Shown: positions 38,431 through 42,597 of the stretch, one piece after another
How positions within the stretch are numbered: position 1 is the stretch's first letter
Layout: each line of letters opens with the position of its first letter
Origin: an uncultured Clostridia bacterium
GTDB lineage: Bacteria > Bacillota > Clostridia > Christensenellales > UBA1242
NCBI GenBank assembly: GCA_944381135.1
Contig: CALWJY010000001.1
Span: 1-64,000 of the forward strand
DNA length: 64,000 nucleotides
Direction: 5' to 3'
Program-made: the position numbers and the translations under genes
Notes under the pieces: model-generated
Seen by the model: only the letters and a program-made list of their open reading frames with translations
Database searches by the model: none
What the model was told of the DNA's origin: nothing

Positions 38431-39561
38431 ATGATTGTTGTTTACATTTTGCTTGCCATAGTCATTCTGCTTTTCATGGTGCTTATCCATGAATTTGGAC
38501 ACTATGTTGCAGGCAAAATTTTGAAGTTTAAAATCACAGAATTTTCTGTTGGTTTTGGCTTTCCAATCTTCACGCGAACGAGCAAGAAAACGGGCGAAAA
38601 ATTTTCGCTCAGAATTTTTCCATTGGGTGGATATTGCTCTTTTGAAGGCGAGGACGACGAGGGAGAATCTTCTTCTCCAACAGCATTCAACAATCAAAAG
38701 CCTTGGAAAAGAATCATTGTGTTTTTGGCGGGCGTGACAGCAAACTTTTTGACAGCCATAATTTTTTCTTGGATTTTGCTTTGCACAATTGGATATGATG
38801 TTCCGCAAATTGCGCGTTTCAATCAAGTCTACACAAATCCATATCAAGTTGGAGATGTCATCACTCACATTGAGGGACAAAAAATTGATTTTGCATTTGG
38901 CGGAAATTTTGTTGACCTTGTCACAAGTGAAAAACAGACGGCTTTGGCGCAGTATAGAGAGCAGTATGAGGCAAATGGCAACAGTCTTGAGGGCGTTGAG
39001 GCTTCCTATACATTTGAAATGACTGTCAAGCGTGACGGAGAACTTCAAAATTTGACAATCACAATCTATCCTGTTGTTGAAGTCAACAGCACGAATGGTG
39101 AAGAATATGTAAATGTCTATACAGGGCTTGAAAGCGCGGAGGGTGAAGACCCTTGCACAGTTGCATATGTCTATGACGCATGGTCGGGCTTTTGTCGTTC
39201 GTTTGAAATGGCATTTGGCTTTGCTTGGGTGGTTCTGAAGAGCCTTTGGATGCTCATTACATTTCAAATTCCAATCACGGAAATGGGCGGAACAATTGCC
39301 ACAATTTCCACAATTGCAACCATGGCGTCACAAAGCATGTCCTACATTTTGGTTTTCATCCCGCTGATTGCGGCGAATTTGGCGGTGTTTAATGTCTTGC
39401 CGTTTCCGGCGCTGGACGGCTCGCATGTGCTTTTCACAATCATAGAGTGGATTCGAGGCAAGCCAATTAATCGAAAAGTTGAGAGCATGATTCACTTTGT
39501 CGGGCTTTGCATTTTGTTTGGTTTTGTGATTATTGTGGACATATTGCATTTTGTCCTATGA
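38431..39561 (+). CDS. rseP: RseP-type site-2 metalloprotease with PDZ domain
   Basis: A 376-aa intramembrane zinc protease of the RseP/RasP family that cuts anti-sigma factors and leftover signal peptides. TM1 contains HEFGHYVAGKIL (about 21-25). A PDZ region follows TM2 (about 125-220), and the third ligand motif NVLPFPALDGSHVLF is near 323. There is no good Shine-Dalgarno site before the ATG. Upstream gap 38183-38430 shows no gene. Confidence 0.95.
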   Translation: MIVVYILLAIVILLFMVLIHEFGHYVAGKILKFKITEFSVGFGFPIFTRTSKKTGEKFSLRIFPLGGYCSFEGEDDEGESSSPTAFNNQKPWKRIIVFLAGVTANFLTAIIFSWILLCTIGYDVPQIARFNQVYTNPYQVGDVITHIEGQKIDFAFGGNFVDLVTSEKQTALAQYREQYEANGNSLEGVEASYTFEMTVKRDGELQNLTITIYPVVEVNSTNGEEYVNVYTGLESAEGEDPCTVAYVYDAWSGFCRSFEMAFGFAWVVLKSLWMLITFQIPITEMGGTIATISTIATMASQSMSYILVFIPLIAANLAVFNVLPFPALDGSHVLFTIIEWIRGKPINRKVESMIHFVGLCILFGFVIIVDILHFVL

Positions 39562-39582: not shown

Positions 39583-39612
39583 AAGGAACGGCGAAATGAC
39601 CGTTCTTTTTTT
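39583..39612 (+). terminator. terminator after rseP
   Basis: AAGGAACGG and CCGTTCTT pair around an eight-base loop, followed by a T run. Confidence 0.85.
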
Positions 39613-39744: not shown

Positions 39745-39779
39745 TTGACAAATTTTCAAGTTTGACATAAAATTGTTGT
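39745..39779 (+). promoter_or_regulatory. leaderless promoter of PolC-like exonuclease
   Basis: A consensus TTGACA at 39745-39750, a 17-base spacer, TAAAAT at 39768-39773 and six bases to the ATG at 39780. The clearest leaderless arrangement in the window together with miaB. Confidence 0.75.
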
Positions 39780-41312
39780 ATGAATTTCCAGCAAGAGTTT
39801 GCCACAAAGTTTGGCGAAAAATATCCAACACTTCAACTTAAAAGCGTTGCGGTCAAGAAAAGCACAGGGGCGTTTTTCATCACTTTTTTATATCCATCCA
39901 CCGACACAGAACTTTCTGATGAGCAAAAAAGCGAAATCACGCAGTGGATTTGCCAATTTTTGAAACTTGAAAATCTGCAAGTCAGAGTCAAGTTTATGCG
40001 TGTTTTTGTGGAAGAAAGGCTGATTATGAAGTCGGTTTTGTCTTTCTTTGAAAACAAATATAAATTGATTTCAACCTATCTTTCTGAGAAAAGTTTTCAA
40101 ATCAAAATCACACCAATTGATGTTCAGATTGGAGTTGAGGTGAGTTCGAGACTTTTTAATTTCTTCGTGGAGCACAACATTTCGGCAGAACTTTCAAAAC
40201 ATCTTAAAGACAACTTTTTGGTGGATTTTGTTGTGGAACTTCATGAAAATGCCAACTTGGTTGATGAAGTGGACATCGACAATGTCCAAATGAAAACGAA
40301 ATATAAAATTGTTCACAGATATAAAGTTGACATCGTGAAAGAGATTGTAGGCAAAGACATCAATCCGACACCAGAATTTATTTCTTTCATTAAACAGCCA
40401 AAAAATTCGGTTATCGTTGCAGGCTTTGTTGACAAACTTGAACGTCGAGATTTCATCATCAAAAAAGGCAAACGCGAAGGTCAACAGAAAGCATATTTCA
40501 GTTTCAAAATTGATGACGGAAAAGGCAAAATGGACTGCATTTTCTTCTGTGCAAAAAAATATGAAAAAGTGATGGACTCTTTGGAAGACTGCATGTTTTT
40601 GCTTTTGCGCGGGGATGTCAGACTGAACCAAATGGGCAAACTTTGCCTTTATGTTGATAAAATTGCTTTGGCAAGTCGAACGGAAGAGCCTCAAGAAATC
40701 ATAAAACCACAGAAGAGTTATGATGGAAAAGTGGTTGAGGTTGAAAAACTGACCGCCATGGAACAAGACAGCATGTTTGAGCACAAAAACAAATATAACG
40801 CCAAAATTATGGGTAAAACAATTGTGGTGTTTGACATTGAAACGACAGGGCTTGACACAAATTCCGACCAAATCATCGAACTTGGTGCTGTGAAATTGGA
40901 AAATGGAAACATTGTCGAAAAATTTTCCACTTTTGTCAAACCAACAATACGAATTCCGTTTGCTGTTGTTGAACTGACAGGAATCACGAATGAAATGGTG
41001 GAAGATGCACCACCAATTGAATTTGTCATCAAAGATTTCTATGACTTCACGCGCGGATGTGTTTTGTGTGGACATAATGCAATTGAATTTGACATCAAAT
41101 TCATCAGGCGCGAGGGGGCAAATTTGGGACTTAATTTTGACAATGAAATCATTGACACCATGAATGAGGCTCGTGTTTCAAGGCTTAAAATTTCGCGTTT
41201 CAATTTGGCAACAGTTTTGCGAGCTTTGGGGTTGACAAACGAAGGGGCTCACCGTGCGTGGAACGATGCTTACGCAACTGCTCAGGTGCTTTTGAAACTA
41301 AACGAAGCTTGA
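39780..41312 (+). CDS. PolC-like protein: N-terminal, OB and DEDDh exonuclease, no polymerase
   Basis: A 510-aa protein at the position where Firmicutes carry polC (rseP-polC-rimP-nusA). Residues 1-200 resemble the PolC N-terminal domains. About 208-300 is an OB fold (SVIVAGFVDKLERRDF ... FSFKIDDGKGKMDCIFF). The exonuclease occupies 345-510 with all DEDDh residues: Asp352 and Glu354 in FDIETTGLD, Asp438 in HNAIEFDIKF, His491 and Asp496 in HRAWNDAYA. The PHP segments that flank the exonuclease in PolC, and the whole polymerase, are missing. The stop is followed by repeats, not by out-of-frame polymerase sequence. It could be a proofreading or repair nuclease acting with DnaE; that is inference. 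Confidence 0.88.
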   Translation: MNFQQEFATKFGEKYPTLQLKSVAVKKSTGAFFITFLYPSTDTELSDEQKSEITQWICQFLKLENLQVRVKFMRVFVEERLIMKSVLSFFENKYKLISTYLSEKSFQIKITPIDVQIGVEVSSRLFNFFVEHNISAELSKHLKDNFLVDFVVELHENANLVDEVDIDNVQMKTKYKIVHRYKVDIVKEIVGKDINPTPEFISFIKQPKNSVIVAGFVDKLERRDFIIKKGKREGQQKAYFSFKIDDGKGKMDCIFFCAKKYEKVMDSLEDCMFLLLRGDVRLNQMGKLCLYVDKIALASRTEEPQEIIKPQKSYDGKVVEVEKLTAMEQDSMFEHKNKYNAKIMGKTIVVFDIETTGLDTNSDQIIELGAVKLENGNIVEKFSTFVKPTIRIPFAVVELTGITNEMVEDAPPIEFVIKDFYDFTRGCVLCGHNAIEFDIKFIRREGANLGLNFDNEIIDTMNEARVSRLKISRFNLATVLRALGLTNEGAHRAWNDAYATAQVLLKLNEA

Positions 41313-41387
41313 CTCGAAAACTGCGCTGTTTGCTCATTTTTGGCATTTCATGCCAAAAAGCATCGCTCTGACGCTTGTTTTCGAGTC
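41311..41387. repeat. structured intergenic repeat, module A copy 2
   Basis: Outer arms GACTCGAAAAC (41311-41321) and GTTTTCGAGTC (41377-41387) pair perfectly. Inner hairpin TTTTTGGCAT-TTC-ATGCCAAAAA lies at 41337-41359. It starts within the stop codon of the PolC-like gene, just as copy 1 starts at the rlmH stop. Confidence 0.8.
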
Positions 41388-41388
41388 A

Positions 41389-41431
41389 TCGCGCCAGACG
41401 AAAATCTCACTGACGTTGCGATTTTGCGCGA
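41389..41431. repeat. structured intergenic repeat, module B copy 2
   Basis: TCGCGC (41389-41394) pairs with GCGCGA (41426-41431); inside, AAAATC (41401) pairs with GATTTT (41420). A further stem CTCTCTT/AAGAGAG (41432-41462) follows. Confidence 0.7.
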
Positions 41432-41488
41432 CTCTCTTGCGAAGAATGAGATTCTAAGAGAGATGGTGTTTTTTTAGAAAGTAGCACT

Positions 41489-41565
41489 GCCACAAAACCG
41501 CGCTGTTTGCTTATTTTTGCCATTTCATGCCAAAAAGTTTCGCCCTGACGCTTGTTTTCGGTGGC
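41489..41565. repeat. structured intergenic repeat, module A copy 3
   Basis: GCCACAAAAC (41489-41498) pairs with GTTTTCGGTGGC (41554-41565) with a two-base bulge. The core AAAACCGCGCTGTTTGCT and GACGCTTGTTTT match copy 2; the inner hairpin has one mismatch. Confidence 0.7.
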
Positions 41566-41639
41566 ATTGCCACAATTTAAAGAATGCAAATTAAAAGGGG
41601 TTCAAAAAAATTCTTAAATTTTTGGGAAAAGGAATGACC

Positions 41640-41735
41640 AAGCATTTTCCGAGTGCTTGCGAAAAGCAAGCCGAGTTTGAGCGCGGGTCATAACGCGGTC
41701 GCGACTCTCCTATCGAAGTGGGAGATTCTAAGAAA
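41640..41735. repeat. diverged relative of module B
   Basis: Hairpin GCTTGC-GAAAA-GCAAGC (about 41655-41671), then GCGACTCTCCTATCGAAG and GGGAGATTCTAAG, matching the tail of module B copy 2. Confidence 0.55.
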
Positions 41736-41768
41736 AAGATGTGTGTTTTAAAAAGTGGCACTGCCACC

Positions 41769-41940
41769 ATCACTCTGAGCAAAGCCCGTTGTTTTGAACT
41801 TATATTTGTCACCCTGAGCGAAGTCGAAGGGTCTCATGGTGATTAAAAAGGAAAGAGATTCTTCGACACAGCCTGTCGGCTGGCTCAGAATGACGAAGAA
41901 AATTGCCGAATGTCATTCTGACCGAAGTGGAAGAATCTCG
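41769..41940. repeat. cluster of CACCCTGAGC-type repeats
   Basis: Four units: 41769-41790, 41808-41835, an inverted unit at 41856-41894 (AGATTCTTCGACACAG...GGCTCAGAATGAC) and 41912-41940. Adjacent direct and inverted units can fold on each other. Confidence 0.75.
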
Positions 41941-42028
41941 GACTACACTTAAGGTGGCGGTGGAGCACTAATTTTTAAAAAAAACACAAAATTGTTATAA
42001 TAAAATTTTTAATTTTTTGAAAAAATCC

Positions 42029-42057
42029 TTGCTTTTTATGATTTTTTGGGTTATAAT
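42029..42057 (+). promoter_or_regulatory. rimP-nusA-infB operon promoter
   Basis: TTGCTT at 42029-42034, a 17-base spacer and a perfect TATAAT at 42052-42057. Transcription should begin near 42064, just upstream of the leader hairpin. Confidence 0.75.
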
Positions 42058-42074
42058 GTTTATATCTTGACATT

Positions 42075-42098
42075 GGAGGGGGCATTTTTGCCTCCTCC
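42075..42098 (+). promoter_or_regulatory. leader hairpin of rimP-nusA operon
   Basis: GGAGGGGGC and GCCTCCTCC form a nine-base stem (one G-U) with a six-base loop, about 10 bases after the predicted start of transcription. No T run follows, so it is not a simple terminator. The 5' arm contains an anti-SD-like purine tract and the 3' arm could alternatively pair with the rimP GGAGG site at 42129. Confidence 0.55.
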
Positions 42099-42138
42099 TT
42101 GTGTTAAAAAGACATTTTTGCAAAAAATTGGAGGAAAA

Positions 42139-42597
42139 ATGGCAAAGATTAAACAAATTTGTGAAGAAAAACTTAAGAGCGTGGTTGAGGAAATGGGCTA
42201 TGAACTTGTGGACGTGGACTATGTCAAAGAGGGCAGTGGAATGAGCCTTATTTTCACCATAGACAAAGATGGTGGCGTGAATGTTGACGATTGCGAACTT
42301 GTCAGCAAACAACTTGACCCAATTCTTGATGAAATCAACCCAACGGAAGACAAACCTTATACACTTGTGGTTTCATCTCCGGGTCTTGACAGACCACTTA
42401 AGACGGACAGAGATTTGAAACGCAATTTGGGCGAAGAAGTTGAAGTGACTCTCTTTGCAAAACTTGACGGAAAGAAAAAGTTTGTTGGAGTTTTGGAAAG
42501 TTTTGACGAGAAGAATATCACTTTGAAAATGGAAAAAGAAAGCAAGACATTTGAGAGAGAAAAAATTGGCTCAATCAAACTTGTCATCAAATTTTAA
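42139..42597 (+). CDS. rimP: ribosome maturation factor RimP
   Basis: A 152-aa protein needed for 30S assembly. VEEMGYELVDVDYVKEGSGMSLIFTID, CELVSKQLDPILDE and VSSPGLDRPLKTDRDLKRNLGEEVEV are the family signature; the C-terminal Sm-like domain follows. The start at 42139 has GGAGG seven bases upstream; earlier in-frame ATG codons fall in the leader hairpin. First gene of the rimP-nusA-ylxR-ylxQ-infB operon. Confidence 0.96.
   Translation: MAKIKQICEEKLKSVVEEMGYELVDVDYVKEGSGMSLIFTIDKDGGVNVDDCELVSKQLDPILDEINPTEDKPYTLVVSSPGLDRPLKTDRDLKRNLGEEVEVTLFAKLDGKKKFVGVLESFDEKNITLKMEKESKTFEREKIGSIKLVIKF

Follow-up and report, generated by a model that had tools for sequence, protein, structure and literature searches.

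What is an exonuclease without a polymerase doing at the place of polC? The question is raised by an open reading frame at 39780-41312 of the window (the whole stretch of 64,000 nucleotides that was analysed), which is open throughout, starts with ATG on the forward strand and encodes a product of 510 residues. Its neighbours in the window, judging from their proteins, are presumably cdsA and rseP upstream and rimP, nusA, ylxR, ylxQ and infB downstream (Table 1). Between the gene and rimP, in the intergenic stretch 41313-41990, we noticed by eye repeat-like elements of the GAAGTCGAAGG and TTCTTCGAC types.

Table 1. Features of the polC locus and of the short gene that occupies it, in window coordinates.
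Feature	Position	Strand	Remarks
rseP, upstream neighbour that marks the polC locus	38431..39561	+	named from its protein
Terminator-like hairpin 3' of rseP	39583..39608	+	consensus match only
Sigma-A-type promoter, TTGACA-17-TAAAAT, ending 6 nt 5' of ATG	39745..39773	+	11/12 consensus
PolC-derived exonuclease gene	39780..41312	+	510 aa, without PHP and polymerase
PolC-type N-terminal domains, NI/NII region (residues 1-210)	39780..40409	+	hhalign to PolC N-termini
OB fold (residues 215-295)	40422..40664	+	PF01336, E 2.7e-6; collinear with PolC OB
Putative beta-clamp-binding pentapeptide QDSMF (residues 329-333)	40764..40778	+	linker; PolC has its first PHP half there
DEDDh exonuclease domain	40824..41291	+	no other PF00929 match in this genome
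rimP, downstream neighbour that marks the polC locus	42139..42597	+	start chosen by eye within listed ORF 42046-42597; named from its protein

A Pfam search of the protein places an RNase_T domain at residues 349-504 (E 3.4e-34), in which the catalytic DEDDh set is complete (D352, E354, D438, H491, D496), and gives, up to E 1, no match to PHP (PF02811) or to the DNA_pol3_alpha polymerase core (PF07733), whereas a full PolC of the same order carries PF02811. The top NCBIfam model is PolC, which matches best over the exonuclease part, its score of 168 bits lying below the cut-off of 873; models of the DnaQ and DinG types also score high. Residues 1-210 yielded nothing convincing in Pfam, including its own PolC N-terminal model, which found no match. 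When the alignment of 40 proteins of the short form was compared, profile to profile (hhalign), with that of 27 full-length PolCs, these residues matched PolC N-termini with a probability of 95.5 (E 1.4e-8), and residues 1-345 matched the PolC N-terminus together with the OB fold with a probability of 99.3 (E 7.1e-21), nine unrelated families used as controls remaining at or below 1.8. The match is collinear and ends at the start of the PHP domain of PolC. At its other end the protein stops a few residues past the exonuclease, without an epsilon-like C-terminal alpha-binding tail, and no clamp-type motif follows the exonuclease in the 510-residue sequence. An earlier note had described the product as a PolC-like N-terminus, an OB fold and a full DEDDh exonuclease, with neither PHP half nor polymerase, and had named the same five catalytic residues; profile comparison, Pfam and residue alignment bear out this description in every part.

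The note had also held that the gene lies exactly where polC does, between rseP and rimP-nusA, and both forms do occur there. By blastp, rseP upstream and rimP downstream were found in 39 of 47 short-form loci, a set in which some genomes are represented twice (e.g., L008 and L089). Three of the other eight (L010, L090, L134) are cut close to the gene, and five (L012, L129, L130, L131, L132) have markers on a single side, the missing side being either rearranged or beyond the blastp search. Among 11 full-PolC loci, six have both flanks, three rseP only and two neither (L138, L141). Since the rseP/rimP flanks are shared in most loci, the short gene corresponds to polC by position in the majority of genomes.

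A further claim, that the promoter was retained from polC, did not hold. Of 33 distinct loci from the window's genus (three duplicate records having been dropped), 28 have the arrangement TTGACA-17-TAnnnT-6-ATG, and the remaining five have the same promoter with a spacer or gap that is, by eye, one nucleotide longer; other families, represented by 12 loci, give promoter matches of 9/12 at best and in no case the TTGACA-17-TAAAAT-6-ATG geometry, which makes the promoter a novelty of the genus. No Shine-Dalgarno sequence was seen in the 28 listed loci of the genus, in two of which the start had been misplaced at the -35 box. Because just 6 nt separate the promoter from the ATG and no Shine-Dalgarno sequence is present, the mRNA of the window's gene is predicted to be leaderless, and the gene is probably leaderless across the genus. 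As a general rule of this genome, leaderless transcription was considered and rejected: the promoter-6-ATG pattern has 35 matches genome-wide with up to one mismatch, against 0 in a reversed control, and, by eye, 21 of the 35 have a codon other than ATG at that place; within the window, nine matches with up to two mismatches compare with 3.64 expected.

How widespread the short form is bears directly on its origin. Among 61 genomes searched, the window's own included, 49 carry the short form (37 of the window's genus and 12 of other families) and 12 a full PolC, G042 having been assigned from the polymerase search. A PolC-type polymerase match is present in 0 of the 49 short-form genomes and in all 12 others; DnaE gives one match in 47 of the 49 (an end piece only in G019), two pieces in G025 and none in G014. 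Over the 67 genomes in which it was examined, the short form measures about 480-600 residues and lies mostly at the same locus. In a sample of the order (141 genomes, 126 with a match), about 15 families have the short form and about 16 the long one among the matches listed, and no family was seen by eye to have both; several of these genomes, among them G042, G066, G120 and G127, hold fragments only and were given no form in this sample, and the short forms of G016, G150 (truncated), G158, G152 and G083 were unfetched or unplaced. Of the members of family f17, only G052 and G137 showed the gene at the polC locus; G101 and G166 gave just an exonuclease of 190-201 residues, and G080 and G119 no match. 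In a sample of the class (128 genomes), no full-length short form was seen by eye outside the order among the 105 genomes with a match at E 1e-12, a 413-residue piece in G269 (L179) being left out of all counts, those of the motif included.

The phylogenies are in line with a single origin from PolC. In a DnaE tree rooted with eight genomes that represent other families in the class (outgroup branch 74/98), the 20 short-form rows form one clade (100/100) nested among nine PolC-bearing genomes of the order, and an unrooted tree of 31 rows likewise separates 10 PolC rows from 21 of the short form; G042 was dropped from both trees, and G039 and G056, whose DnaE is partial, from the rooted one. 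Because the short-form genomes form one DnaE clade among PolC-bearing ones, we infer that polymerase and PHP were lost from PolC in one ancient event, which spans about 15 families among the matches listed. The check that the earlier note had proposed, an exonuclease tree with other DEDDh domains, gathers the short-form domains in one group (71/94) on the side of PolC, away from 17 other DEDDh domains, across a split of only moderate support (84/82); it includes 27 of 28 PolCs (the reverse-strand ORF of L139 was dropped), of which one (L137) falls on the other side.

What remains for replication in the window's own genome is a single polymerase of the C family. The assembly (1.19 Mb, 16 contigs, 98.5% complete) has one DNA_pol3_alpha match, a DnaE1 of 1205 residues with PHP, polymerase core, HhH and OB; no PolC was found elsewhere in it, nor a second RNase_T match beside that of the short gene, and MutL is present. 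The nine PHP metal residues of this DnaE1 read HHDHEHCDH, a signature counted as active in the account of PMC12926913, and its clamp-type motif is QISFF. The PHP signature is intact in 31 of 31 readable DnaE1 rows, the 32nd (G056) being unreadable. The genome search thus sides with the note's view that replication is left to DnaE, and its larger proposal, a replicative polymerase reduced to a stand-alone nuclease, gains support from the PolC homology, the locus and the exclusive distribution.

The linker directly before the exonuclease carries a feature of its own. Q329 is kept in 39 of 40 aligned short-form proteins and heads a pentapeptide that reads QDSMF in the window and QDNMF, QSNLF, QASLF, QENLF and similar elsewhere, a fit to the clamp consensus QL[S/D]LF (PMC3919608) that makes it a putative clamp-binding motif. 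Counting one protein per genome, the canonical form Q..[LMFI][FL] occurs in the linkers of 49 of 57 catalytically intact proteins, against 2.16 expected from shuffled linkers; the strict form Q..[LM]F occurs in 31 of 40 short forms (0.29 expected), and a looser pattern in 39 of 40 (5.2 expected) versus 1 of 27 PolC linkers. In PolC, the looser pattern is found inside the first PHP half in 5 of 27 proteins and a clamp-type motif at the C-terminus in 24 of 27. Eight of the 57 active proteins lack the canonical motif, five of them in family f6; by eye, four of these exceptions have K or R in place of Q before -LF, and the one in G078 has V before -VF.

Motif and catalysis decay together. The DEDDh set is intact in 57 of 67 short-form proteins and lost in ten (L131, L133, L164, L165, L166, L167, L168, L169, L170, L171), which belong to family f17 (two), family f20 (six) and one genus of family f32 (two). 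The decayed genes stay at the polC locus, eight with rseP and rimP and two with rseP only, and keep their length and their similarity over the exonuclease region, and none of the ten has a canonical clamp motif at the aligned place (QINFV, QSYLY and so on), the protein of G104 having a motif-like QTSLL further along the linker. This joint decay, in three lineages rather than ten independent events, ties motif and nuclease to one function. Active genes are under purifying selection: dN/dS is 0.04-0.18 in seven pairs, some of which approach saturation of dS. In all seven, amino-acid change is slower in the exonuclease third (for one pair by an uncorrected comparison), and dN/dS is lower there in all six pairs that allowed it to be computed. 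Among four decayed pairs, three are saturated overall and one has a dN/dS of 0.33 (0.23 in the exonuclease third versus 0.39), which is weaker constraint. Possibly, the decayed forms serve as a non-catalytic part of the replisome.

Two genomes with a decayed copy hold further exonuclease-like sequences. In G155, a second stretch (L177, G155:C1:201527-202087) contains two stops, and G052 encodes a 449-residue protein (L163) with a separate DEDDh domain that groups with other DEDDh domains and not with PolC. A co-loss of mismatch repair with the decayed exonuclease was considered as a pattern and rejected, MutL_C being matched in 15 of 17 genomes tested: the two misses are G055 of family f20, of which all six other tested members are over the cut-off (G168 weakly), and G166, an 88% complete genome.

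Our preferred reading, to which we assign a probability of roughly two in three, is that PolC was dismantled into an epsilon-like proofreader that serves DnaE1 while tethered to the clamp. The gene's identity and locus, the single loss, the intact catalytic set and the motif with its joint decay are read from the sequences themselves; the course of events and the functional steps would be as follows. In the ancestor of about 15 families of uncultured Clostridia, among the matches listed, PolC lost its PHP domain and polymerase; the N-terminal domains, the OB fold and the DEDDh exonuclease stayed, and in the linker directly N-terminal to the exonuclease there arose a pentapeptide that would bind the clamp. 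The product would work like epsilon: the linker motif would tie it to the beta clamp, its N-terminal/OB part perhaps forming a second tether, to the clamp loader or DnaE1, and it would remove mispaired 3' ends made by DnaE1, the sole replicative polymerase left. DnaE1 retains a second, PHP-type proofreading site, so that the exonuclease may be useful but dispensable, its catalysis having decayed in three lineages; the PolC-derived exonuclease thus need not be the sole proofreader, and another may be superfluous. In B. subtilis, the exonuclease of PolC is believed to act in trans on errors made by DnaE and to correct them (PMC11890065), and PMC3919608 ascribes to clostridial DnaE1 a clamp motif, an intact PHP site and a conserved surface that is a putative binding site for epsilon, and proposes that the N-terminal part of PolC contacts the clamp loader; given PolC exonuclease action in trans and these features of DnaE1, losing the polymerase and keeping a clamp-tethered exonuclease would be a short step. 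The full stepwise course, from one loss of PHP and polymerase through a clamp motif in the scar and convergence on epsilon to a joint decay that leaves an N-terminal/OB part in the replisome, we would back at even odds.

The other readings divide into those that question what the gene is and those that question what it does. An ordinary exonuclease of the DnaQ or DinG type, fused to an OB domain and standing at the polC locus by chance, would account for the high scores of the corresponding NCBIfam models, and DEDDh domains are common, but the PolC homology of N-terminus and OB fold, the position of full PolC and the mutually exclusive distribution make it very improbable, and the PolC-side exonuclease (84/82) together with the PolC N-terminus led us to reject descent from the DnaQ lineage. 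The chance that the short gene is an assembly artefact, a frameshift or a split polC is negligible: although the genome is in 16 contigs and the stretch after the gene looks repetitive by eye, the short form recurs in 67 genomes, mostly at the same locus, under purifying selection, the own genome has no second polymerase match and no PolC-type match exists in 49 short-form genomes. Misassembly and a hidden PolC were rejected on the same grounds, and with them both objections that the note had foreseen, loss of the polymerase part at 41312 (excluded by the recurrence of the short form) and an intact polC elsewhere (not found, DnaE1 being the only match).

As to function, a remnant nuclease could serve DNA repair or trim the ends of Okazaki fragments on the clamp, with DnaE1 proofreading itself through its PHP domain. 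The intact PHP signature and the loss of catalysis in 10 of 67 proteins would suit such a role, and the OB fold could bind single strands; descent from a replicative proofreading domain and retention of the PolC part for which clamp-loader contact is proposed (PMC3919608) speak against it, and we regard it as unlikely. Less likely still is a structural role throughout, in which the N-terminal/OB part acts as a connector within the replisome and the exonuclease fold is gradually being lost. It would explain why ten proteins in three lineages keep their place, length and similarity without a catalytic set; against it, 57 of 67 keep all five residues, the exonuclease third is under the stronger constraint in active pairs, and constraint is relaxed in the decayed pair, even if its exonuclease third again has the lower value.

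In the main texts of open-licence papers we found no description of a stand-alone exonuclease derived from PolC, the nearest published cases being clostridial PolCs that lack the exonuclease and clostridia that have just one DnaE1 (PMC3919608). New here are the linker motif at the site of PHP loss, the old loss across families and the later catalytic decay. Surveys of the C family distinguish three replicase sets, DnaE1 alone, PolC + DnaE1 and PolC + DnaE3, and call the second uncharacterised, asking whether DnaE1 is its real replicase (PMC3919608; PMC12926913). The clade described here suggests an answer by evolution, namely that the PolC polymerase is dispensable and that its proofreading and tethering parts are kept. 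If this is true, these genomes are natural experiments: they show clostridial DnaE1 copying the entire chromosome and reveal the parts of PolC worth keeping, and they offer a proofreader design of a novel type. We would predict that the clade escapes inhibitors of the PolC active site such as ibezapolstat; for annotation, a partial 'PolC' match need not mean a PolC polymerase.

Compared with known systems, the protein is best read as a PolC derivative that would work like epsilon and falls short of the full definition of either family. With PolC-type DNA polymerase III (NF001688 / TIGR01405) it shares the N-terminal domains, the OB fold, the DEDDh exonuclease, their order and the locus; unlike PolC, it has no PHP, polymerase, HhH or C-terminal clamp motif, and its motif lies in the linker instead. 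With E. coli epsilon (DnaQ) it shares the state of a separate DEDDh exonuclease polypeptide beside a DnaE1, and by sequence a putative clamp-binding motif adjoins its exonuclease. In epsilon, the clamp motif is QTSMAF and follows the exonuclease, whereas the short form is built from PolC, has its motif N-terminal to the exonuclease along with a large N-terminal/OB part, and lacks the C-terminal tail for the PHP domain. In exonuclease-helicases of the DinG type a helicase follows the exonuclease, whereas the short form ends at residue 510, its exonuclease extending to 504. In mycobacteria, too, the non-canonical DnaQ is a DEDDh exonuclease on a polypeptide of its own, in a system that has DnaE1 alone and an active PHP domain. 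To our knowledge, it has no PolC N-terminus. It acts with a PHP-active DnaE1 and, in the account of PMC12926913, is not described as derived from PolC. The PolCs of Clostridia and Negativicutes that lack the Exo insertion (PMC3919608) resemble the short form in lacking a part of PolC and, in clostridia, in being paired with DnaE1, and they are its mirror case: they keep the polymerase and miss the exonuclease, and the short form does the reverse.
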